Below, one piece after another: positions 29,523 through 60,198 of a stretch of 64,000 nt of DNA. Location of the stretch: the NCBI GenBank assembly GCA_016458225.1, contig JAEMGR010000009.1, positions 62,001-126,000 on the forward strand, written 5' to 3'. Source of the DNA: Myxococcaceae bacterium JPH2. GTDB lineage: Bacteria; Myxococcota; Myxococcia; Myxococcales; Myxococcaceae. Position 1 is the stretch's first letter. Every line of letters starts with the position of its first letter. The notes under the pieces were generated by a model. That model had not been told where the DNA came from. It worked only from the letters and a program-made list of their open reading frames with translations, and ran no database searches. Made by a program: the position numbers and the translations under genes.

Positions 29523-31238
29523 TCAGAACAACGAGTAGCGCTGCGTGAGCGGAAGGCGCACGGCCGGCTCGCAGCGCAGCAGCTCGCCGTCGGCGCGGAC
29601 CTCGTAGGTCTCTGGGTCCACCGTCAGGTGAGGCAGCGCATCGTTGAGCCGCATGTCGCGCTTGGTCAGGCCCCGGCAGCGCCGCACCGCGGACAGGTGC
29701 TTGGTCAACCCGAGTTCGTCCAATCGCCCCTCGGACAGCGCGCGCGCCGACACGAAGGCCACGCTGGTGGCGCCCACCGCGCGTCCGCGCGCGCCGAACA
29801 TCGGACGCATGAGGTACGGCTGCGGCGTGGGGATGGATGCGTTCGCGTCTCCCATCTGCGCCCACGCGGTGAGCCCGCCCTTGAGCACCAGCTCCGGACG
29901 GATGCCGAAGAACGCGGGACGCCACAGGACCAGGTCCGCCAGCTTCCCCACCTCCACCGAGCCCACGTCATGCGACAGCCCGTGGGCGATGGCGGGGTTG
30001 ATGGTGTACTTGGCCACGTAGCGACGAATGCGCAGGTTGTCGTTGTCGCCTCGCTCTTCACCCAGGCGCCCGCGCTGCTCGCGCATCTTGTGCGCCGTCT
30101 GCCAGGTGCGGCAGATGACCTCGCCCACGCGCCCCATCGCCTGACTGTCCGAGGACATCATGCTGATGGCCCCCAGGTCGTGGAGGATGTCCTCCGCGGC
30201 GATCGTCTCGCCCCGGATGCGGCTCTCCGCGAACGCCACGTCCTCGGGAATCTCCGTATCCAGGTGGTGACACACCATGAGCATGTCGAGGTGCTCATCC
30301 AGCGTGTTCACCGTGTACGGCCGCGTGGGGTTCGTCGAGCTGGGCAGCACGTGCTCCACGCCGCACACGCGGATGATGTCCGGCGCGTGTCCGCCGCCCG
30401 CGCCCTCCGAGTGGTACGTGTGGATGGTGCGCCCACGGAAGGCCGCGAGCGAATCGTCCACGTAGCCCGACTCGTTGAGCGTGTCCGTGTGGATGGTGAC
30501 CTGGATGTCCTCGCCCTCGGCCACGCTCAGGCACGTGTCGATGGCGGCGGGAGTGGTGCCCCAATCCTCGTGAAGCTTCAGGCCGATGGCGCCCGCGCGG
30601 ATCTGCTCCAGCAGGCCCTGCGGCAGCGACGTGTTCCCCTTCCCCGTCAGCCCGATGTTGAGCGGCAGCGAGTCCGTGGACTGGAGCATCCGGCGCAGGT
30701 TCCACGCGCCCGGCGTGCACGTGGTCGCCTTGCTGCCCGTCGCGGGCCCCGTGCCTCCGCCCACCCAGGTGGTGATGCCGCTGGCGAGCGCCTCGTCCGC
30801 CTGCTGCGGGCAGATGAAATGGATGTGCGTGTCCAACCCGCCGGCCGTGACGATGAGGCCTTCCGCGGAGATGGCCTCGGTGGTGACCCCCACCACCATG
30901 CCCGGCGTCACGCCCGCCATGACATCCGGGTTGCCCGCCTTGCCAATGGCGCTGATCCGCCCCGCCTTGATGCCGATGTCCGCCTTGTAGATGCCGGTCC
31001 AGTCCAGGATGAGCGCGTTGGTGATGACGCAATCGAGCGCATCCGCGTCGCCCGTCCCCGCGCGCTGCCCCATGCCCTCGCGCAGGACCTTGCCTCCACC
31101 GAACTTGCACTCGTCTCCGTAGACGGTGGCGTCGCGCTCCACCTCGGCCCACAGGCCGGTGTCGCCCAGCCGCACGCGGTCGCCCGTGGTGGGCCCGAAC
31201 ATGTCCGCGTAGTGACGGCGATCGATTCCCCGGCTCAT
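29523..31238 (-). CDS. ureC: urease alpha subunit
   Basis: This is the catalytic subunit that hydrolyses urea to ammonia and carbamate with a di-nickel centre. At 571 residues it is full length. The metal ligands are intact: His138 and His140 ([14 protein letters not shown]), Lys221 (GLKLHEDWG, the residue that becomes carbamylated), His250 ([11 protein letters not shown]), His276 ([14 protein letters not shown]) and Asp364 ([11 protein letters not shown]). Cys323-His324 of the mobile flap (MVCHHLD) are also present. The ATG at 31238 overlaps the ureAB stop as ATGA, so the subunits are translationally coupled. Confidence 0.97.
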
Positions 31239-49879: not shown

Positions 49880-52800
49880 CTACCCGTGCGGCGCCGGGTG
49901 CGCGGCCTCGGCCGGAGCGGGCTCCACATCCGCCTTGCCACCGCCGAGCCGCGTCTTGATGCGGTCCGCCACCACATAGAAGGCGGGCACCACCAGGAGG
50001 CTGAGCACGGTGGAGACGGACAAGCCGCCGAGCACCGCGATGGACATGGGCGCGCGCGTCTCGCTTCCCGCGCCCAGCGACAGCGCGGCCGGCACCGCCG
50101 CCATCATCGTGGCCATGGACGTCATGAGGATGGGCCGCAGGCGCACCGGGCCGGCGCGCAGCATGGCCTGCTCGGCGTCCGCGCCCAGCTCGCGCTGCTG
50201 GAGCGCGTAGTCCACCAGGATGATGGAGTTCTTCTTCACGATGCCCATCAGCAGCAGCAGACCAATCATGCTGAAGATGTTCAGCGTGCTCCCGGTGCCC
50301 AACAGCGCGAAGGACGCGCCCGCCACCGACAGCGGCAAGATGGTGAGCACCGTGACGGGGTGCAGGAACGAGTTGAACTGCGCGCCCAGCACCATGTACG
50401 CGACGCCAATCCCCAGGAAGAGCGCGAAGACGAGGCTGCTCATCGACTCGCGGAACGCCACGCTGGCGCCGCCGACCACCACGCGCGTGCCACCGGGAAG
50501 GTCCTTGGCCAGCCGCTCCACCGTGGCGAGCGCCTCCTCCTGATTCGAGCTGGGCGCCACGTTGGCGAAGATGCTGATGGCGCGCTCGCGGTCCCGCCGG
50601 GTGATGGCCTGGAGCGCGGGGCGCTCCTCCTGCGCCACGAGCGTGGACAGGGGCACCAGCGTGCCGCTCGCGGTGCGCAGCTTCAACAGCGACAGGTCCT
50701 CCGGACGCGACCGCTGTCCGGACATCAGCCGCAGGCGCACGTCGATGCGGCGCCCACCGGTGCTGTACTTGCCCACGCGCACACCGCCCACCAGGGCGTT
50801 GATGGTGGAGGCCACCGACTGCATCGGCACGCCCAGGTCCGCCGCGCGCGCCCGGTCCGGGGTGATGCGCAGCTCGGGCATGCCCAGCTGGTAGTCGGTG
50901 TCCACGTCCACCACCTTGCCGCTGGCCTGGAGCTTCTCGCGCATCTCCTGGCTGGCTTCCACCAGCCGCTCCCAATCCGAGCCGCGCACGCTGAACTCCA
51001 CGGGGAAGCCACGCTGCGCGGTGAAGCCGCTCTGCGACAGGTCCTGCACCACGGCGCGCAGGCCGGGGAAGGCGTTGAGGCCCTTGCGCAGCACCTGCTG
51101 GAACTCGGCCTGCGTCATGCGCTGCTTCGCGGGCACCAGCGTGAGCATCAGCATGCCGGTGTTCACGCCCGAGCCACCCATGCCGCCCACCACGGCGAAC
51201 ACGCGGTCCACCTCGGGGCGGTGCATGACGAACTCCTCGGCCTGCTTGAAGAGCTGGTTCGTCTCATCCAGGCTGCTGCCCACCGCCGTCTGCAGGCGGA
51301 TCACCAGGCGCCCCTGGTCCTGCGACGGGACGAACTCTCCCGGCAGCGCGCGGAACGCGAACACGCTCGCGAGCAGCATGAGCGACGCGCTGCCCAGCAC
51401 GCGCCACGGACGCTTCAGGCCCCACGCCAGCACGCGCGCGTACAGGTGCTCCAGGCGGGTGAAGGCGCGGTCCACCGCGAGCCCCACCCGACCGCGGCCC
51501 TCGCGGGTGGTGCGCAGAAGCTGCGCGCAGCGCGCCGGCGCCAGGGTGATGGCCTCCACGTAGGAGAGCAGCACCGCCACGCACAGCGTGACGCCGAACT
51601 GGAGGAAGAAGCGGCCGATGATGCCCTTCATGAAGATGACGGGCAGGAAGATGGCCACCACGGCCACCGTGGCGGCCAGCGCGGCGAAGGTGATCTCCGC
51701 GGTGCCCTCGCGCGCGGCGCGCACCCGCTCCTTCCCCTCCTCCGAGTGCCGGAAGATGTTCTCCAGCACCATGATGGCGTCGTCCACCACGATGCCCACC
51801 GCCAGCGCCAATCCCAGGAGCGTGAAGGTGTTGAGGGTGAAGCCGAGGAAGTAGATGACCGCCACCGTGCCCAACAGCGACATGGGGATGGCGAGCACCA
51901 CGTTGAGCGTGCTGGACAGCGAGCCGAGGAACACCCAGCACACGAGCGCGGTGAGCAGACACGCCAGCATCAGCTCGAACTCGATCTCGTGGACGCTCTC
52001 CTCGATGAACTGCGACGAGTCGAAGTTGATGCCGATGGTCATCCCGGCGGGCGCTTCCTTCTGGATGCGCGCCAGCTCGGTGCGCACGCCCTGGGCCACG
52101 GCCACCGCGTTGGCGCCGCGCTGCTTCTTGATGCCCAGGCCCTGCGCGGGCTCGCCGTTGACGCGGGCCATGCGGCGCACGTCCTCGAAGCCGTCCTCCA
52201 CCAGCGCCACGTCGCTCAGGTAGACGGGCTGGCCGCTCTGCTCGCGCAGCACGATGTGGCGCAGCGTCTCCAGGTCCAACGCCTCGCCCAGCACCCGGAC
52301 GTTGACCTCGCGGCCCTGCGTCTCGATGCGACCCGCGGGCAGCTCCACGTGCTCGCGCTGGAGCGCGCTGATGACGTCCTCCACCGTGAGGCCGTGCGCG
52401 TCCAGCTTCTGCGCGTCCACCCAGATGCGCACGTTGCGCTCCAAGAGGCCGCCGAGCTGCACCTCGCCCACGCCAGGCACCGTCTGCAGCTGCTCCTTCA
52501 CGCGGTAGCGGGCGAAGTCACCCACCACCTGCTGCGCGAAGGGACCGGACACGCCCAGCCACATGATGGGCTGATCCTCCGGGTTCGTCTTGGAGACGAC
52601 GGGCGGATCAATGTCCCGGGGCAGCGCGCGCTGCGCCTGGCTCACCTTGGTCTGCACGTCCTGGAGCGCCAGGTCCACGTTGCGCGACAGGTCCAGCTCC
52701 ACCGTGATGCTGGCGCCGCCCTGGCGCGCGGTGGAGGTGATGCTCTTGACGCCCTCGACCTGCGTCACCGCCTCCTCGATGGGCTCGATGACGTCGCTCT

Positions 52801-52978
52801 CCACCGCCTCCGGGTTGGCGCCTTCCCACGTCACCCCGATGTTGATGGTGGGGAAGTCCACGTCCGGAAACTGGCTGATGCCGATGCGCTGCGCGGCCAC
52901 CAGTCCGAAGACGATGGTCGCCGCCATGATCATCCAGGCGAGGACGGGCTTCTTGATGCAGACCTCGGTGATGTTCAT
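49880..52978 (-). CDS. RND efflux transporter (inner-membrane pump)
   Basis: This 1,032-residue protein is a full-length resistance-nodulation-division pump that uses the proton gradient to expel drugs or other small molecules. The 12 membrane segments, two large periplasmic loops and the proton-relay Asp-Asp in GIVVDDAIMVLENIF are present, with GISQFPDVDFPTINIGVTW near the N-terminus and KKNSIILVDYALQQ in segment 10. It belongs to the HAE1-like group. The start overlaps the membrane-fusion gene as ATGA. It is the last gene of the tolC-like/fusion/pump operon. Confidence 0.95.
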   Translation of the reverse strand: MNITEVCIKKPVLAWMIMAATIVFGLVAAQRIGISQFPDVDFPTINIGVTWEGANPEAVESDVIEPIEEAVTQVEGVKSITSTARQGGASITVELDLSRNVDLALQDVQTKVSQAQRALPRDIDPPVVSKTNPEDQPIMWLGVSGPFAQQVVGDFARYRVKEQLQTVPGVGEVQLGGLLERNVRIWVDAQKLDAHGLTVEDVISALQREHVELPAGRIETQGREVNVRVLGEALDLETLRHIVLREQSGQPVYLSDVALVEDGFEDVRRMARVNGEPAQGLGIKKQRGANAVAVAQGVRTELARIQKEAPAGMTIGINFDSSQFIEESVHEIEFELMLACLLTALVCWVFLGSLSSTLNVVLAIPMSLLGTVAVIYFLGFTLNTFTLLGLALAVGIVVDDAIMVLENIFRHSEEGKERVRAAREGTAEITFAALAATVAVVAIFLPVIFMKGIIGRFFLQFGVTLCVAVLLSYVEAITLAPARCAQLLRTTREGRGRVGLAVDRAFTRLEHLYARVLAWGLKRPWRVLGSASLMLLASVFAFRALPGEFVPSQDQGRLVIRLQTAVGSSLDETNQLFKQAEEFVMHRPEVDRVFAVVGGMGGSGVNTGMLMLTLVPAKQRMTQAEFQQVLRKGLNAFPGLRAVVQDLSQSGFTAQRGFPVEFSVRGSDWERLVEASQEMREKLQASGKVVDVDTDYQLGMPELRITPDRARAADLGVPMQSVASTINALVGGVRVGKYSTGGRRIDVRLRLMSGQRSRPEDLSLLKLRTASGTLVPLSTLVAQEERPALQAITRRDRERAISIFANVAPSSNQEEALATVERLAKDLPGGTRVVVGGASVAFRESMSSLVFALFLGIGVAYMVLGAQFNSFLHPVTVLTILPLSVAGASFALLGTGSTLNIFSMIGLLLLMGIVKKNSIILVDYALQQRELGADAEQAMLRAGPVRLRPILMTSMATMMAAVPAALSLGAGSETRAPMSIAVLGGLSVSTVLSLLVVPAFYVVADRIKTRLGGGKADVEPAPAEAAHPAPHG

Positions 52979-54186
52979 GGGCGAGCGCCCCCGGCGACAT
53001 CCGCGCCTGCGGGCGTCTGCTGTCGCGGCTCCCCCGTGAAGGCGGGGCCGGTGCCCTGGGTGACGCGCACCGACGCGCCGTCGCGCAGCGCCTCGGCACC
53101 GCGGACCACGAGCTGCTCTCCGGTCTTCAGTCCATCGCGCACCTCCACGCGGCCGTCCGCCGTGCGCATGCCCAGGTCGAGCACGCGCTCACGCGCCTTG
53201 TCGCCCACCACCACGAAGGCGAGGAAGCCGCGCTCGCTGGGGCGGATGGCGGTCTGCGGCACCACGGGGCTGCCGCCGCGCGTCTCCACCGGGACGTTGA
53301 CCGTGGCGAAGGCGCCGGGACGCAGCCGGGCCGCGTCCGCGCCGGACACCTCGGCCGTGACCGCCACCATGCGGCTCTGATCATCCGCGCTCGCCGACAC
53401 GTGGGTGATCTTCCCCGTGTACGCGCCGCCATCCGAGCGCACCGTGAAGCGCGCCGTCATGCCCGGCTGGATGCGCGCCACGTCCGCCTCGGGGACGTTG
53501 AAGCGCAAGAGCAGCGGCTCCCGGCGCAGCAGCGTGGCCATCACCGCGCCGGGCTGGAGGTACTGACCCGTCTGCACCGTGCGCGTCTGGAGCACGCCGT
53601 CCATGGGCGCCTTCACGTACGCATCGCGCTGGTTGAGCTGCGCCTGCTCCAGCGAGGCCTTCGCCGCAGCCACCTCCGCCTGCGCCGTGGCCGCGCGGGC
53701 GTTGTAGGTCTGGAGCTCCTCGGCGGGCAGCAGGCCCGGACGCTCCGTGTTCACCGCCGAGCGACGCTGCGCGCCCGCCTGCGCATCCGCCAGCGAGGCC
53801 TGTGCCTTCTGGAGCGCGGCCTCGGCCGCCCGCACCGCGATGGCGTAGCGGTTGGGCTCGATCTCCGCGAGCACCTCGCCGCGCTTCACCGCCTGCCCCT
53901 CCATGAACAGCACGCGCTCCACGGCGCCCGGCACGCGCGCGGTGATCTGCACGCGCTCGAAGGCGTCCACCGAGCCCACCGCGCTGACGACGTACTCCAC
54001 GTCGCGCGCCTCGACTGGGGCCACCTCGACGGGGAACTGGAGCGGACCGCGACCGCCTCCCGGTCCCCCCTTGCCCGCGGCCGGCGGGGCTCCGGGCGCG
54101 CCCGCCTCGTCCTTCTTGCAACCAGCGCCCGTGGCCAGCACAGCCACCGACAGGACCACGATTCCAGCGCGTCGCATTGCCTTCAC
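52975..54186 (-). CDS. RND membrane-fusion (periplasmic adaptor) lipoprotein
   Basis: This 403-residue adaptor links the pump to the outer-membrane channel. It has a lipoprotein signal (VVLSVAVLATGAGC), a barrel-sandwich hybrid domain (EYVVSAVGSVDAFERVQITARVPGAVERVLF), a coiled coil (residues about 110-180) and beta-barrel domains (PMDGVLQTRTVQTGQYLQPG). It resembles AcrA/MexA-type HlyD proteins. The GTG at 54186 overlaps the tolC-like stop as GTGA; an ATG at 54177 is the alternative. It overlaps the pump gene by 4 nt. Confidence 0.92.
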   Translation of the reverse strand: MKAMRRAGIVVLSVAVLATGAGCKKDEAGAPGAPPAAGKGGPGGGRGPLQFPVEVAPVEARDVEYVVSAVGSVDAFERVQITARVPGAVERVLFMEGQAVKRGEVLAEIEPNRYAIAVRAAEAALQKAQASLADAQAGAQRRSAVNTERPGLLPAEELQTYNARAATAQAEVAAAKASLEQAQLNQRDAYVKAPMDGVLQTRTVQTGQYLQPGAVMATLLRREPLLLRFNVPEADVARIQPGMTARFTVRSDGGAYTGKITHVSASADDQSRMVAVTAEVSGADAARLRPGAFATVNVPVETRGGSPVVPQTAIRPSERGFLAFVVVGDKARERVLDLGMRTADGRVEVRDGLKTGEQLVVRGAEALRDGASVRVTQGTGPAFTGEPRQQTPAGADVAGGARP

Positions 54187-55517
54187 GGTTCCTTCCCCAG
54201 CGGATCGAGTCCCACGGCCGCGCGCAGCCCCAGCAGCGCGACGCCCAGTCCATACCGGCTGCTCGCCAGCGTCACCTCGGCCTCGAAGAGCCGGAGCGAG
54301 GCGTCCGCCACCGCGAGCGCGGTGGACAACCCCTGGCGATAGAGGACGCCGGTCTCCTCGGCGTTCTTGCGCGCGGCCCGAGCCGCCTGTTCGCTCTGCG
54401 CCAGCGCGGCCCGAGCCGTCTCCAGTGCCACGCGCGCCCGCTCGATGTCCACATCCACGCGGCGGGTGCGCGCCTGCTCGTCCAGCTCGGCGGCCCGCGT
54501 GTTGGCCACGCGCTCACGTCGCTCGGCGTAGCGCTCGCCACCGTCGAACAGGTTCCAGGTGAGATCCACCGAGAGGAAGCCGTCCCCGACGCGGCCCGTG
54601 AGCCCCGCTTCGTTGGTCAGCTTGTACTGCGCGGTGGCCCCCAGCGTGGGCAGCAGGCGCGCCAGCGGCTCGCGGGCATTGGCCTCCAGCGAGCGCACGC
54701 GCAGCCGCGCGGCCAGGATGTCCAGCCGCTTGTCCGCCGCGCCCTGCGTCAGAACATCCAGCGCGGGCGACGGGCGAGCGGCGTCCGACAACAGCACCTC
54801 GGGCGGCGCGAGCGCGTCACCCACGCGCTCCACCAGCAGATAGCCCAGCTCCAGGTTGCTCGTCTGCGCGGTGCCCAGCGCCGAGGCCCGGCCCGACTCC
54901 GCCGTGGCCACTTCCAGCTCGGCGCGCGTCACGTCGTTGGAGCTGGAGAGCCCCGCCTTGGCGCGAGCCTGGGCGTCCTCCAGCCCCTGGCGCGCGAAGG
55001 CGAGCCGCTGCTCCGCGGCGCTCGCCACCTGCTGATTCTCCAGGCTGATGAGGAACGCGTTGGCGGCCTCGAACTGCACCTGCCGGCGAGCCTCGCGGGC
55101 GTCCAGCCGAGCGGCCTGCCCCTCCAGCTTCGCCGCGGTGTAGAGGGGAAAGCCGCGCGCGTCGAACAGGGTGACGCGCCCGGTGAAGTTGGCGCCGAGC
55201 GCGTCGTACTTCTGGAGCACCACCGTCTGCCCGCCCACCTCCCGCGTCGACTGGTGCAGGCGGCGCGTGTACGTGCCGGTCGCCGTCAGTTCGGGGAAGA
55301 AGAAGGCGCGGGCGCGGGCCACGCGGGCATCCGCAGCCTGCGCGCGCTGGTCCGCGGACAGGACGCTCTCGTTGCGCTCCGCGGCCAGGGCCACCGCTCG
55401 CTCGAGCGTCAGCGGCGCCTCGGCGGCCGGGGCTTGGGCGCGGGCTCCGGCTGGAATCAGGGTGAGCCAGGCACACAAGGGCGCGGCGAGGAGGGGGCGG
55501 CGGACGTCGGTGAGCAT
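54183..55517 (-). CDS. TolC-family outer-membrane efflux protein
   Basis: This 444-residue outer-membrane channel is the exit duct for the RND pump. It has a signal peptide (LLAAPLCAWLTLIPAGARA) and the repeated structure of outer-membrane efflux proteins: LTLERAVALAAERNESVLSADQ then DQRAQAADARVARARAFFFPELTATGTY, and a second half around LNLFDGGERYAERRERV and ARVALETARAALAQSEQAARAAR. The ATG at 55517 is chosen as the start of the signal peptide; the upstream extension of the frame has no similarity. No ribosome-binding site is clear. It starts the operon and is divergent from the MopE-like gene. Confidence 0.9.
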   Translation of the reverse strand: MLTDVRRPLLAAPLCAWLTLIPAGARAQAPAAEAPLTLERAVALAAERNESVLSADQRAQAADARVARARAFFFPELTATGTYTRRLHQSTREVGGQTVVLQKYDALGANFTGRVTLFDARGFPLYTAAKLEGQAARLDAREARRQVQFEAANAFLISLENQQVASAAEQRLAFARQGLEDAQARAKAGLSSSNDVTRAELEVATAESGRASALGTAQTSNLELGYLLVERVGDALAPPEVLLSDAARPSPALDVLTQGAADKRLDILAARLRVRSLEANAREPLARLLPTLGATAQYKLTNEAGLTGRVGDGFLSVDLTWNLFDGGERYAERRERVANTRAAELDEQARTRRVDVDIERARVALETARAALAQSEQAARAARKNAEETGVLYRQGLSTALAVADASLRLFEAEVTLASSRYGLGVALLGLRAAVGLDPLGKEP

Positions 55518-55714
55518 GGGCAAGGGCGGTGTACGAGCCGGCGGTGGCGGGTCGGCGGGCCATATCACGGGCATGGCCCACGGGATTCCCAGACCGCGTT
55601 CCACCCTGGACGATGGCCGGCGGCACGGTCTAAGGGTGCGACGTGATTCTCCTCGGTAGTCGACCTCACCGCGCTTCTCCCGGGGCACGCGGCGTGCCCC
55701 AGAATGCCTCCGCG

Positions 55715-57628
55715 ATGCGTTTATTCCTGCTGGGCTTGCTGTGTGTGTCGATGACGGCGTGCAAGCGCGAGCCCAAGGACGATCCCCGCACGGGCGCCCT
55801 GCGCGTGCTCGTCTTCTACGCGACGTTCCGGCCCGCCTGCCTGACGCTGACCGCGCGTGACGTGGCCGACACGAGCCGTGAGGCTCAGACGCCCATCTCG
55901 GTGGACGCCGCGCGCCAGAGTGACACACGGACCGTGGCGGTGTTTCGCCAGCCGGGCTGGAGCCAGGACCTGCGGCTGACGGTGCAGGCCCACGAGCGCT
56001 CCTGCGTGGGGCCCGTGGTGGCCGAGCAGACGGTGACGGCGACGGTGCCGCGCGAGGGCCGCCTGGACGTGGAGATGGACCTGCGCGCCGAGGACCTCGA
56101 CGACGACGGCTTCATCTCCGAGGCGCAGGGCGGCACGGATTGCGACGACACCCGCGCGGACGTGAACCCGCAGGCCCCCGAGGTTTGCGACGGCGTGGAC
56201 AACAACTGCGCCCTGGGAGAGTCCGAGGCCGCGGGCAGTCAGCTCTGGTACGTGGATCGGGACGGAGACGGCTATGGCACCACGCCCTTCCCCGCCTGTG
56301 GCCGGCCCGCGAACACGGCGCCACGGGGCGGCGACTGCGACGACTCGAGCGCGAGCATCCACCCCGGCCAGGAGGAGACCCGCTGCGACGGCGTGGATGA
56401 GAACTGCGACGGCGCCAAGGACGAGCCCTTCCGAGTGGGACAGGCCTGCGTCACGGACCAGCAGTGCCCGGGAAGCTATGCGTGCGCGTCCAGCGGCGCG
56501 GGCGCGGCGTGCCTGGGCTCGCAGAGTCCGCAGGCGTGGTTCGTGGACGAAGACGGTGATGGCCGCGCGGGGACGAGCACCGCGCCGAGCTGCGTGTCGC
56601 CCGCCCCTGGCGCCACCCACGTGGCCGAGGACTGCGACGAGAGCTCGCGCTTCGTGGCGCAGGGCCTCTCCGAGGTCTGCGATCGGTTGGACAACGACTG
56701 TGACGGGCAGGTGGACACCGCGAGCTGCACGCTGACGTGGGCGCCCCTGACCAACGCTCCCTCCACGAGCACGCGCTGGAACGCCGTGGCGGCCTACGCC
56801 CCGGGCAAGGCATGGTTCGCGGGCGAGGACCAGCAGCTCCTGCACGTGGACGGCGCGGCGCGCACCGGCCTCACCTGCGCGGGCAACTGGAGGTCCGCGT
56901 GGGCGACCGCTTCGGGCCGGGTCTTCCTGGGCGCCGAGGACGGCCGCATCGCCACGCGCACGCCCACCGAGGACTGCGCGGTGGTGGCACTCCCCGGCAT
57001 GAGCGCGGGCATCAACGGCCTCGTGGGCTTTGAGACCGCGAACGGCACCACGCTCTACGCCGTGTCGAGCAGTGGCCGAGTCCTGCGCTGGGACTACCCC
57101 TCGGCCGCCGCGCCCGTGGAGGTGGCGAACCTGGGCGTCAACCTGCGCGCCATCCATGGCGCATCGGGTCCGCAGACGCTGCTGGCGGTGGGCGCATTGG
57201 ATCAGGGCGTGGACTCGCCGCAGCCCCGAGCGTTCCGCCTCGACGTGGCCACGGGCCACTGGACCTCCGAGAGCCTGGGCAACACGGGCCCGGGCTTCCT
57301 GCGCGGCGTGCACGTGGTGGACGCGCGCACGGCCTACGCGGTGGGCGACCAAGGATTGGTGCTGGAGCGCGCGGACGGAGTCTGGCGCATGCTCCCGCGC
57401 CTCGCGGACGCTGCGGGAACGCCTCGGGACGCGACGGGCGTGGTCGCCTATGGCCGACATGCCATCTATGCCGTCTCCAGCGACGGCCAGGTGCGGTTCT
57501 CCGACGGCGGAGCCACGTGGGTGACGGCCTACGATGGCGCATCGGGGCTGACCGCCGTCGACGGGCCCTCGCCGACGGAGCTCTGGGCCAGCGGACAGCA
57601 GGGGACGATCGCCCGCTTCCACCCGTAG
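55715..57628 (+). CDS. MopE-like lipoprotein with metal-binding motifs
   Basis: This 637-residue protein has a lipoprotein signal (LLGLLCVSMTAC). A beta domain (residues 20-130) is followed by three putative metal-binding motifs (PF11617, known from the copper-binding MopE): GTDCDDTRADVNPQAPEVCD, GGDCDDSSASIHPGQEE and AEDCDESSRFVAQGLSEVCD, each with Cys and acidic residues and a following NNC/ENC/NDC. The C-terminal 300 residues are beta-rich with repeats such as KAWFAGEDQQLLHV and VLERADGVWRML, like a propeller. It is probably exposed on the cell surface. A role in copper or calcium binding is inferred from the family. Confidence 0.85.
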   Translation: MRLFLLGLLCVSMTACKREPKDDPRTGALRVLVFYATFRPACLTLTARDVADTSREAQTPISVDAARQSDTRTVAVFRQPGWSQDLRLTVQAHERSCVGPVVAEQTVTATVPREGRLDVEMDLRAEDLDDDGFISEAQGGTDCDDTRADVNPQAPEVCDGVDNNCALGESEAAGSQLWYVDRDGDGYGTTPFPACGRPANTAPRGGDCDDSSASIHPGQEETRCDGVDENCDGAKDEPFRVGQACVTDQQCPGSYACASSGAGAACLGSQSPQAWFVDEDGDGRAGTSTAPSCVSPAPGATHVAEDCDESSRFVAQGLSEVCDRLDNDCDGQVDTASCTLTWAPLTNAPSTSTRWNAVAAYAPGKAWFAGEDQQLLHVDGAARTGLTCAGNWRSAWATASGRVFLGAEDGRIATRTPTEDCAVVALPGMSAGINGLVGFETANGTTLYAVSSSGRVLRWDYPSAAAPVEVANLGVNLRAIHGASGPQTLLAVGALDQGVDSPQPRAFRLDVATGHWTSESLGNTGPGFLRGVHVVDARTAYAVGDQGLVLERADGVWRMLPRLADAAGTPRDATGVVAYGRHAIYAVSSDGQVRFSDGGATWVTAYDGASGLTAVDGPSPTELWASGQQGTIARFHP

Positions 57629-57814: not shown

Positions 57815-57830
57815 TACGAACTTCTTCGTA
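57815..57830. promoter_or_regulatory. TetR-type operator 1
   Basis: TACGAACTTCTTCGTA is a 6-4-6 inverted repeat overlapping the left end of the -35 box. Its centre is 22 bp from that of operator 2, two helical turns apart, so both sites face the same side of the DNA. Confidence 0.75.
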
Positions 57831-57856
57831 GACATCTACGAAGCGCTTCGTATAAA
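57829..57856 (+). promoter_or_regulatory. sigma-70-type promoter under the operators
   Basis: TAGACA (57829-57834; 5 of 6 match to TTGACA), a 16-bp spacer and TATAAA (57851-57856; 5 of 6 match to TATAAT) make a plausible housekeeping promoter. The two operators overlap both boxes. The expected transcript starts near 57863, about 20 nt before the ATG at 57883. Confidence 0.6.
57837..57852. promoter_or_regulatory. TetR-type operator 2
   Basis: TACGAAGCGCTTCGTA is a fully perfect 16-bp palindrome within the promoter spacer and touching the -10 box. The half-site is the same as in operator 1. Confidence 0.75.
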
Positions 57857-58401
57857 TGCCGGACGTCACGCGAGGAGGCCCCATGCACACCCTCGTTTCC
57901 CTGCTGCTCCTAGTCCACGCCGCAGCGCCGTTGGAGGCGAGCGGCCCCCCGTCATCCCCGACACATCCCCTGGGAGTGTGGACCGCCGTGGTGGCGGGAA
58001 ACCTCGGCTCTGGCGCCCCTGGGGTGACGCTCCACCTCAACCATGACGGCCTCCCCCAGCTCACCTATTCCGTTGGGGCCAATGGGTTGTCCGACAGTTC
58101 ACCGGACACGCTCATCGTTGCCACCGTCGTCACTCGCCACCCCTCGCTCGGCTCGGTGCTGGCGATGGCCCGCGACGAGCTGACCTCCGGGCTCCACGCG
58201 AAGCTCCGGCGCCCGCTCGCACGGCTGAACCGCGCCTGGGCGGCCTTCTCCCGAGCCCCATCCGGGCGTGACTCCAAGGCGGAAATCCCGCTCGTATCCC
58301 TGGATTCACCGGGGTCGCTGAACATCCCGGGTGTCCAGGCAGGGACGCCCTTGCGAACCTCATTGCCTCCTGAGGGGAAGGAAGGTGTTACAAGCCGCGG
58401 C

Positions 58402-60198
58402 GTGACTGCCCCCAATCCCCCCCCTGATGCAGGCTTTGACGCCCTGGGCCTCAAGCCGGCCCTCGTCGAGGCGTTGACCACCCTCGGCTACGAGGAGCCC
58501 ACGCCCATCCAGCGGGCCTCCCTCCCGCCCCTCCTGGCGGGCAAGGACCTGCTGGGCATCGCCGCTACCGGGACCGGCAAGACGGCCGCCTTCTCGCTGC
58601 CGATGCTCCACCACATCACCCCCGGCCAGGCCGGGCCTCACGCCACGTCCGCGCTGGTGCTCGTGCCCACGCGCGAGCTGGCCATGCAGGTCTCCGAGGC
58701 CATCCACCGCTATGGCCAGAAGCTGGGCATCAGCGCGCTGCCGCTGTACGGCGGCCAGGAGATTGGCCGCCAGCTGCGCGTGCTCAAGCGCGGCGTGGAC
58801 GTCGTCGTCGCCACGCCGGGGCGCGCGTTGGATCACCTGCGCCGCAAGACGCTGCGGCTCGACTCGGTGCACACGGTGGTGCTCGACGAGGCGGACGAGA
58901 TGCTCGACATGGGCTTCGCGGACGACCTGGAGGCCATCCTCTCCGAGACGCCCGAGGACCGGCAGACGGCGCTGTTCTCCGCCACCCTGCCCCCGCGCAT
59001 CGCGAGCATCGCCGAGCGCCACCTGAAGAACCCGGTGCGCGTGAAGATCGCCAAGGAGAAGGTGGAGCCTGGCTCGATGCCGCGCGTGCGCCAGACGGCG
59101 TACGTCGTCCCGCGCGCCTACAAGGTGGCCACCCTGGGCCGCGTGCTGGACCTGGAGGCGCCCAGCGCCGCCATCGTGTTCTGCCGCACGCGCACGGAGG
59201 TGGACGAGCTGACCCTGTCCCTCAACGGTCGCGGCTGGCGCGCGCACGCCCTGCACGGCGGCATGACGCAGGAGCAGCGCGGCCGGGTCATCAAGCAGCT
59301 CAAGTCGCAGGGCACCGACCTGCTCATCGCCACGGACGTGGCGGCGCGCGGCCTGGACATCCCTCGGCTGTCGCACGTCGTGAACTTCGACGTGCCCAAC
59401 GCGCCGGAGGCGTACGTGCACCGCATCGGGCGCACGGGCCGCGCCGGCCGAGAGGGCGTGGCCATCACCCTGCTGGAGCCCCGCGAGCACCGGCTGCTGC
59501 GCAACATCGAGAAGCTGACCGGTCAGCGCATCGACGTGGCCACGGTGCCCACCGTCGCGGACCTCCGGGTGCGGCGCATGGACCTCTTGCGCGCGTCCAT
59601 GCGCGAGGCCCTGCTCGCCGGTGAGCTGGAGTCCTTCCGAGGCGTGATCGAGGGCCTCGCCTCCGACTTCGACGTGCTGGACGTGGCCGCCGCCGCCCTC
59701 AAGCTGCTCCAAGAGGCTCGGGACGAGGGCCACGACAGCACCGAGGACGACATCCCCGCCCTGCCGCCGCCCTCCGAGCGGCGCGAGCGCACCGAGCGCA
59801 CGGATCGCCCCGCCTTCGCCCGCGCGCAGCGTCCCCAGCGCGGCGAACGGCCGGAGTACGGCGAACGGCCCGAGCGCGGCGAGCGTCCCGAGCGCGGTGA
59901 GCGCCCCGAGCGCGGAGCCCCGCCCCGGCGCCGGGGCGGCGGTCCCCAGGACTGGGAGATCACCCGGCTGCACATCAACGCGGGGCGCAACGCGGGCATG
60001 CGGCCCGCGGACCTCGTGGGTGCCATCGCCGGCGAGTCCGGCCTGGACTCCTCGCAGATCGGCGCCATCCACATCGCGGACACCTACTCGCTCGTGGAGG
60101 TCCCCGAGCGTGAGGCGCCGCGCATCATCGCCGCGCTCAAGCAGGCCACCGTGCGCGGTCGCAAGGTGGCGGTGCGCCCGGATCGCGATCGCGCCTGA
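58402..60198 (+). CDS. DEAD-box RNA helicase with DbpA-type RNA-binding tail (DeaD/CsdA-like)
   Basis: This 598-residue protein unwinds RNA duplexes in ribosome assembly or cold adaptation. All helicase motifs are present: Q motif GYEEPTPIQ, I ATGTGKT, Ia PTRELAM, Ib TPGRALDH, II DEAD in VVLDEADEMLDMGF, III SAT, IV/V IATDVAARGLDIP and VI HRIGRTGRAG. A low-complexity tract follows with five RPERGE-type hexapeptides, then a C-terminal DbpA RNA-binding domain (about 75 residues; LHINAGRNAGMRPADLVGAI) like that of CsdA. The GTG at 58402 is the likely start of the domain, but the ATG at 57883 with AGGAGG lies in the same frame and would add 173 residues. Confidence 0.88.
   Translation: MTAPNPPPDAGFDALGLKPALVEALTTLGYEEPTPIQRASLPPLLAGKDLLGIAATGTGKTAAFSLPMLHHITPGQAGPHATSALVLVPTRELAMQVSEAIHRYGQKLGISALPLYGGQEIGRQLRVLKRGVDVVVATPGRALDHLRRKTLRLDSVHTVVLDEADEMLDMGFADDLEAILSETPEDRQTALFSATLPPRIASIAERHLKNPVRVKIAKEKVEPGSMPRVRQTAYVVPRAYKVATLGRVLDLEAPSAAIVFCRTRTEVDELTLSLNGRGWRAHALHGGMTQEQRGRVIKQLKSQGTDLLIATDVAARGLDIPRLSHVVNFDVPNAPEAYVHRIGRTGRAGREGVAITLLEPREHRLLRNIEKLTGQRIDVATVPTVADLRVRRMDLLRASMREALLAGELESFRGVIEGLASDFDVLDVAAAALKLLQEARDEGHDSTEDDIPALPPPSERRERTERTDRPAFARAQRPQRGERPEYGERPERGERPERGERPERGAPPRRRGGGPQDWEITRLHINAGRNAGMRPADLVGAIAGESGLDSSQIGAIHIADTYSLVEVPEREAPRIIAALKQATVRGRKVAVRPDRDRA

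Follow-up and report, generated by a model that had tools for sequence, protein, structure and literature searches.

The known systems nearest to the locus presented here include BlaI/BlaR1 and MecI/MecR1 of Staphylococcus and Bacillus licheniformis: as set out in the accessible part of PMC3305447, a Penicillinase_R gene is followed by the gene of an M56 membrane protease, and operator dyads lie over the promoter, with a TACA/TGTA core according to the available sections of PMC7253601. In Clostridium thermocellum, BlaI_0696 and BlaI_1845 govern small regulons through GTCTAT / GACTAT half-sites, and two inverted-repeat pairs, for four protomers, are apparently strictly required (PMC8457756, in the part available). 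BlaI of Mycobacterium tuberculosis controls genes beyond the beta-lactamase, and the accessible portion of PMC12565901 names no helicase among its targets. CopY, a related repressor family, likewise has 16-bp operators, with two palindromes upstream of the Enterococcus hirae cop operon, but it differs from the system described below in its metal-sensing C-terminal motifs and its TACANNTGTA core (PMC7253601, accessible part); the available text of PMC2658668 gives no operator sequence. A literature search, made mostly without subscription papers and so not proof of absence, turned up neither a BlaI regulon described in myxobacteria nor a BlaI operator of the TACGAA type, nor a DEAD-box helicase under BlaI control.

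The locus lies in the genome of a soil myxobacterium (8.99 Mb, 144 contigs), within a stretch of 64,000 nucleotides, called the window, that corresponds to C9:62001-126000. An earlier note on this DNA had described two perfect palindromes over a promoter, an ideal ribosome-binding site and a start codon, and had taken the whole for the control region of a TetR-regulated gene with no regulator beside it. The elements themselves are all present, and a repressor-type operator does cover the promoter:

57815..57830, + strand: operator dyad 1, TACGAA-N4-TTCGTA, from the sequence, window and genome scans, and half-sites kept in the sister species
57837..57852, + strand: operator dyad 2, TACGAA-N4-TTCGTA, centred 22 bp from dyad 1, on the same basis
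57829..57834, + strand: -35-like TAGACA, read from the sequence and compared with the pairs of other genera
57851..57856, + strand: -10-like TATAAA, overlapping dyad 2
57873..57878, + strand: AGGAGG, ribosome-binding-site-like, from the sequence and kept in the sister species
57883-57885, + strand: ATG start codon

With up to two mismatches allowed, the window contains two dyad matches against 0.13 expected, and two or more occur in 2 of 100 shuffles of it; neither dyad has a mismatch. The two promoter hexamers are separated by 16 bp. A strict consensus scan for promoters and terminators found none between 57600 and 58600; it did not list the window promoter because it demands T as the last base of the -10 hexamer. 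The pairs listed in other genera carry TTGACA or a near form (TTGATT, TTGACT) at the -35 position, while both loci of the Citreicoccus type have TAGACA, which makes the dyad perfect; with this hexamer the window promoter may be weak. The inner half-sites also form a further near-perfect palindrome at 57825-57842, TTCGTAGA-CA-TCTACGAA, which the TTGACA of the relatives breaks. The earlier note had counted loss of the palindromes in related strains against its reading, and in one related species they are not lost: in the copy of the locus in Citreicoccus inhibens M34 (G014), none of the 24 half-site bases has changed and the spacer is again 6 bp long, AGGAGG and ATG are kept as well, and the only change in the operator falls inside the second N4. 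The intergenic DNA that leads from the upstream gene to the operator cannot be aligned between the two species, and the adjoining coding DNA is 75% identical.

Sites of the form TACGAA-N4-TTCGTA with at most one mismatch number six in the whole genome, arranged as three tandem pairs whose centres are each 22 bp apart; a search with the full 38-bp pair (up to three mismatches) returned the same three, and its reversed control none:

C3:645442-645479: promoter pair of a repressor gene of the BlaI/MecI family
C9:119815-119852: pair of the window locus
C16:20048-20085: third pair

The third pair lies between a gene for a DUF5916 outer-membrane-type protein and two divergent alpha/beta hydrolase genes (L008 5349-7907 (-) and 8252-10065 (+)), and its TTGACT hexamer is oriented toward DUF5916. 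On contig C3, the repressor gene (C3:645520-645909, a 130-aa ORF; Penicillinase_R E 3.4e-27) starts 40 bp after the pair and shares its operator with the window locus. Its stop codon overlaps the start of the next gene, whose 709-aa product carries a protease domain of the M56 BlaR1 type (Peptidase_M56 E 4.3e-31) and C-terminal repeats, and a third gene encodes a signal-peptide-like repeat protein, named Rep here. The M56 protein and Rep have repeats of the LGVTPEFI..LK..G type in common (L007 8910-12101), which may act as the sensor. As in BlaI/BlaR1 and MecI/MecR1, a Penicillinase_R gene is thus coupled to an M56 gene, operator dyads lie over the promoter and a beta-lactamase-type target exists in a related genus; the half-site, however, is TACGAA/TTCGTA rather than TACA/TGTA, the targets include DUF5916 and repeat proteins, and Pfam searches up to E 1 found on the M56 protein only M56, M48 and weak unrelated matches, with no penicillin-binding (transpeptidase-like) sensor domain (compare PMC3305447, accessible part). 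Induction by beta-lactams is therefore not implied. The small regulon and the tandem arrangement resemble what the available part of PMC8457756 reports for C. thermocellum, where half-sites and targets differ. The solved sequence nearest to the C3 repressor is PDB 2g9w (E 3.3e-9), labelled a conserved hypothetical protein in the table, which we take to be the BlaI of M. tuberculosis; further PDB matches are named penicillinase repressor and MecI.

The assignment of the two dyads as a tandem operator for the C3 repressor, for which we would put the probability at about 0.88, draws on the distribution of the motif within the genome and across the family. In favour of a repressor of the TetR family, either lost or encoded at another place, it can be said that TetR operators are palindromes over promoters and that the genome has 45 TetR_N matches. 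As the earlier note had observed, no TetR gene is near: none of the 45 matches falls in C9:62001-126000, the nearest on the contig being at 308281. A TetR gene with the motif in its own promoter, which the note proposed to look for, does not exist among the three genomic places of the motif; the regulator promoter that carries it is that of the BlaI gene and its M56 partner. Since this pair forms the BlaI-M56 promoter and pairs follow BlaI across 96 genomes of the family, the TetR reading is rejected as hardly tenable. Of the two fates that the note had allowed for the regulator, action from elsewhere is supported, by the BlaI gene on another contig, and loss is not. The window also contains an RND efflux set at 49880-55928 (-), consisting of an ACR_tran pump, an HlyD-type adaptor and an OEP outer-membrane protein.

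Four Penicillinase_R genes are present in the genome. The promoter of the paralogue on C21 has related dyads of the TACGAC/TACGAT type, which raises the question of whether this repressor, or both, could use the window site; these dyads differ from the window pair in the sixth half-site base and in their spacing (23 instead of 22 bp), which makes such use improbable. Other palindromes lie upstream of the genes on C5 and C15. As the three remaining genes have different promoter motifs, the TACGAA pairs point to the C3 protein.

Across the family, the operator pair occurs in 61 of 96 genomes, belonging to 8 of 26 genera, and the reversed control gave 0 in all 96; it is absent from all 51 further genomes surveyed in the class. 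BlaI homologues (E 1e-20 or better) were found in 65 of the 96 genomes, and in all 61 pair-bearing ones a pair ends 8-40 bp before such a homologue. The strict pair is thus present in 61 of 65 BlaI-positive and in 0 of 31 BlaI-negative genomes. The four exceptions comprise two dyads with a spacer shorter by 1 bp (G001), a single perfect dyad (G051) and two genomes with only a paralogue bearing TACGAC-type dyads (G040, G067). In ten genomes the pair occurs more than once, and all 12 extra pairs precede genes of signal-peptide-like envelope proteins: three stand before DUF5916 (G000, G014, G058), five before Rep (G031, G032, G033, G035, G037), two before a protein of the serine beta-lactamase family (G006, G007) and two before the window-type ORF (G000, G014). 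In G006, G042 and G054, the DUF5916 gene follows the start of BlaI at a distance of 3 to 4 kb and has the same orientation, so that members of the set seem to carry an operator of their own where they are separated from it. This is the pattern expected of one regulon. In GTDB, an exact scan places the pair in at least 119 stretches, with Acidobacteria, Planctomycetes and Verrucomicrobia among the groups represented; a BlaI homologue lies within 250 bp downstream in 70 of the 80 loci examined, and the Citreicoccus copy of the window locus is one of the ten without.

Behind the window operator, the frame is open from ATG 57883 to 60198, with no stop codon before a DEAD-box helicase that lies in frame, and in C. 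inhibens it is likewise open into the helicase. It comprises three parts:

57883..58290, + strand: N-terminal part, with a signal-peptide-like start and then some 100 residues similar to the N-lobe of a serine beta-lactamase that is operator-linked in another genus, SxxK lost
58291..58401, + strand: stretch conserved as DNA, not as protein, between the two species, holding TGTTACAAG
58402..60198, + strand: DEAD-box RNA helicase (DEAD, Helicase_C, DbpA, DeaD_dimer), native start GTG 58402

A helicase match is present in 93 of the 96 family genomes. In other genera the helicase starts at the equivalent of GTG 58402, and where upstream sequence is readable they have no translation upstream of that start in common. 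The motif TGTTACAAG at 58386-58394, just before the GTG, is the same in C. inhibens and similar in other genera, and is possibly a leaderless-type promoter; a TGGTACAAG-like element precedes the helicase start in 10 of 10 aligned sequences. The helicase keeps its own start and a promoter-like element. Between the window and C. inhibens, codons 1-135 have a dN/dS of 0.41 (bootstrap 0.25-0.64; 0.99 and 1.89 in the two other frames), and codons 137-172 combine a dN/dS of 2.57 with 93.5% DNA identity, which marks them as conserved at the DNA level. The dS of the fragment, 0.54 against 0.10 to 0.26 in eight comparison genes, suggests relaxed constraint. No structured RNA was detected between the parts of the ORF, the fold z being -0.17 and Rfam giving nothing there. 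Elsewhere in the window, at 30791-31086 (+), Rfam matches 5_ureB_sRNA with 80.6 bits, above the gathering score, which is unexpected in a myxobacterium.

The ancestry of the N-terminal fragment, which begins with MHTLVSLLLL and thus has no lysine or arginine at its start, can be approached through the operator. When searched against the 96 genomes, the fragment matched the two congeners and then, weakly, G007 (E 1.2e-4) and G006 (E 9e-4); these E-values apply per genome and amount to about 0.01 over 96. The two matches are the best outside the genus and lie directly behind the second operator pair of these genomes, in a gene for a serine hydrolase of 457 aa; D-peptidases and class C beta-lactamases are among the solved relatives of this protein. 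With the signal peptide removed, alignment with this operator-linked beta-lactamase gave z scores of 6.6 for the window and 9.2 for C. inhibens (0 of 500 shuffles each), and in a repeat 6.3 and 9.1, against at most 2.8 for ten Rep N-termini. These scores also led to the rejection of a Rep-type repeat protein, considered because of its signal peptide, as the source of the ORF. Among 15 beta-lactamase relatives aligned with both fragments, the operator-linked protein (L101) and its copy in G032 (L103) score well with both and one further relative (L110) with one, the rest reaching at most 3.3. That copy (L103, L136; C13) is 95% identical to the operator-linked protein, and the DNA upstream of it differs and lacks the operator, which suggests transfer or promoter replacement and indicates that operator and gene are separable. 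The beta-lactamase-like region spans about 125 residues, the alignment ending near residue 123, and the C-terminal part with YxN, found as YNN at 178 in the 457-aa protein, is absent. Opposite the STTK of that protein, the window and C. inhibens both have TVVT; with SxxK lost, the piece can have no activity of the serine beta-lactamase kind.

We consider beta-lactamase ancestry of the fragment probable, on a link to one operator-linked protein family. The competing view, that the operator is BlaI's and the ORF is unrelated to beta-lactamases, being either a small secreted protein that evolves fast or a frame open by chance, finds some support in searches with the fragment itself: Pfam gave no match, a beta-lactamase profile built from 17 sequences could not tell the window copy from shuffles, and a PDB profile search returned no beta-lactamase up to E 10. 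An AlphaFold model of the fragment is poor (mean pLDDT 50.7) and places mainly strands ahead of helices. The only PDB profile matches, tweety homologues (best E 0.004), were taken as chance. Against an unrelated ORF stand the best non-genus matches, which in G006 and G007 follow the operator exactly, and the collinear alignment outside the signal peptide, well above the Rep N-termini in score, and we regard it as unlikely. Upstream of the helicase, a beta-lactamase match (E 0.01) was found in C. inhibens only among 30 helicase loci examined, the window copy falling below this cut-off.

Taken together, the best reading is an ordinary BlaI regulon, one of whose operators has outlived its beta-lactamase. 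The C3 BlaI would be encoded in an autoregulated operon with the M56 protease and the repeat protein; at the window operator, we infer that two BlaI dimers, four protomers in all, cover the promoter from -35 to -10 and block RNA polymerase, and that an envelope signal lifts the repression via the M56 protease. The gene behind the operator probably once encoded a secreted serine beta-lactamase that belonged to this regulon, and in the window genus it would have shrunk to a catalytically dead N-terminal piece, in frame into the helicase gene. Transcription would take in the fragment and, as neither a stop nor a terminator recognised by the scan intervenes, could run on into the helicase. The operator may instead be a fossil that still binds BlaI and yields no functional product, the helicase being expressed only from its own promoter; this reading, plausible if somewhat short of an even chance, accords with the loss of SxxK and of the C-terminal lobe in both species, with the conserved element that the helicase retains upstream, and with the lack of protein-level constraint between fragment and helicase. 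It sits less easily with half-sites kept in full beside an upstream stretch that has diverged, with the codon-level constraint on the fragment and with the open path to the helicase. The bolder proposal, which we hold to be quite doubtful, is that the operator has been taken over in the window genus, such that envelope stress, through M56 and BlaI, would add a second, inducible transcript; from it the helicase would be made with a degenerate, signal-peptide-like N-lobe of a beta-lactamase fused to its front, in addition to the normal helicase that its own promoter provides.

The system is of the BlaI/M56 type already known, and it is the target side that is uncommon. An operator without a neighbouring regulator can be attributed, with the probability given above, to a specific repressor, and the family gains a base-level operator, TACGAA-N4-TTCGTA with 22 bp between centres, for a BlaI/M56 system without a known penicillin sensor domain. 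The resulting three-operator regulon is open to test in a cultured relative, Citreicoccus inhibens. The locus would offer a clean case of regulatory DNA that stays intact after loss of the enzyme it probably served, and whose control a neighbouring gene could inherit.
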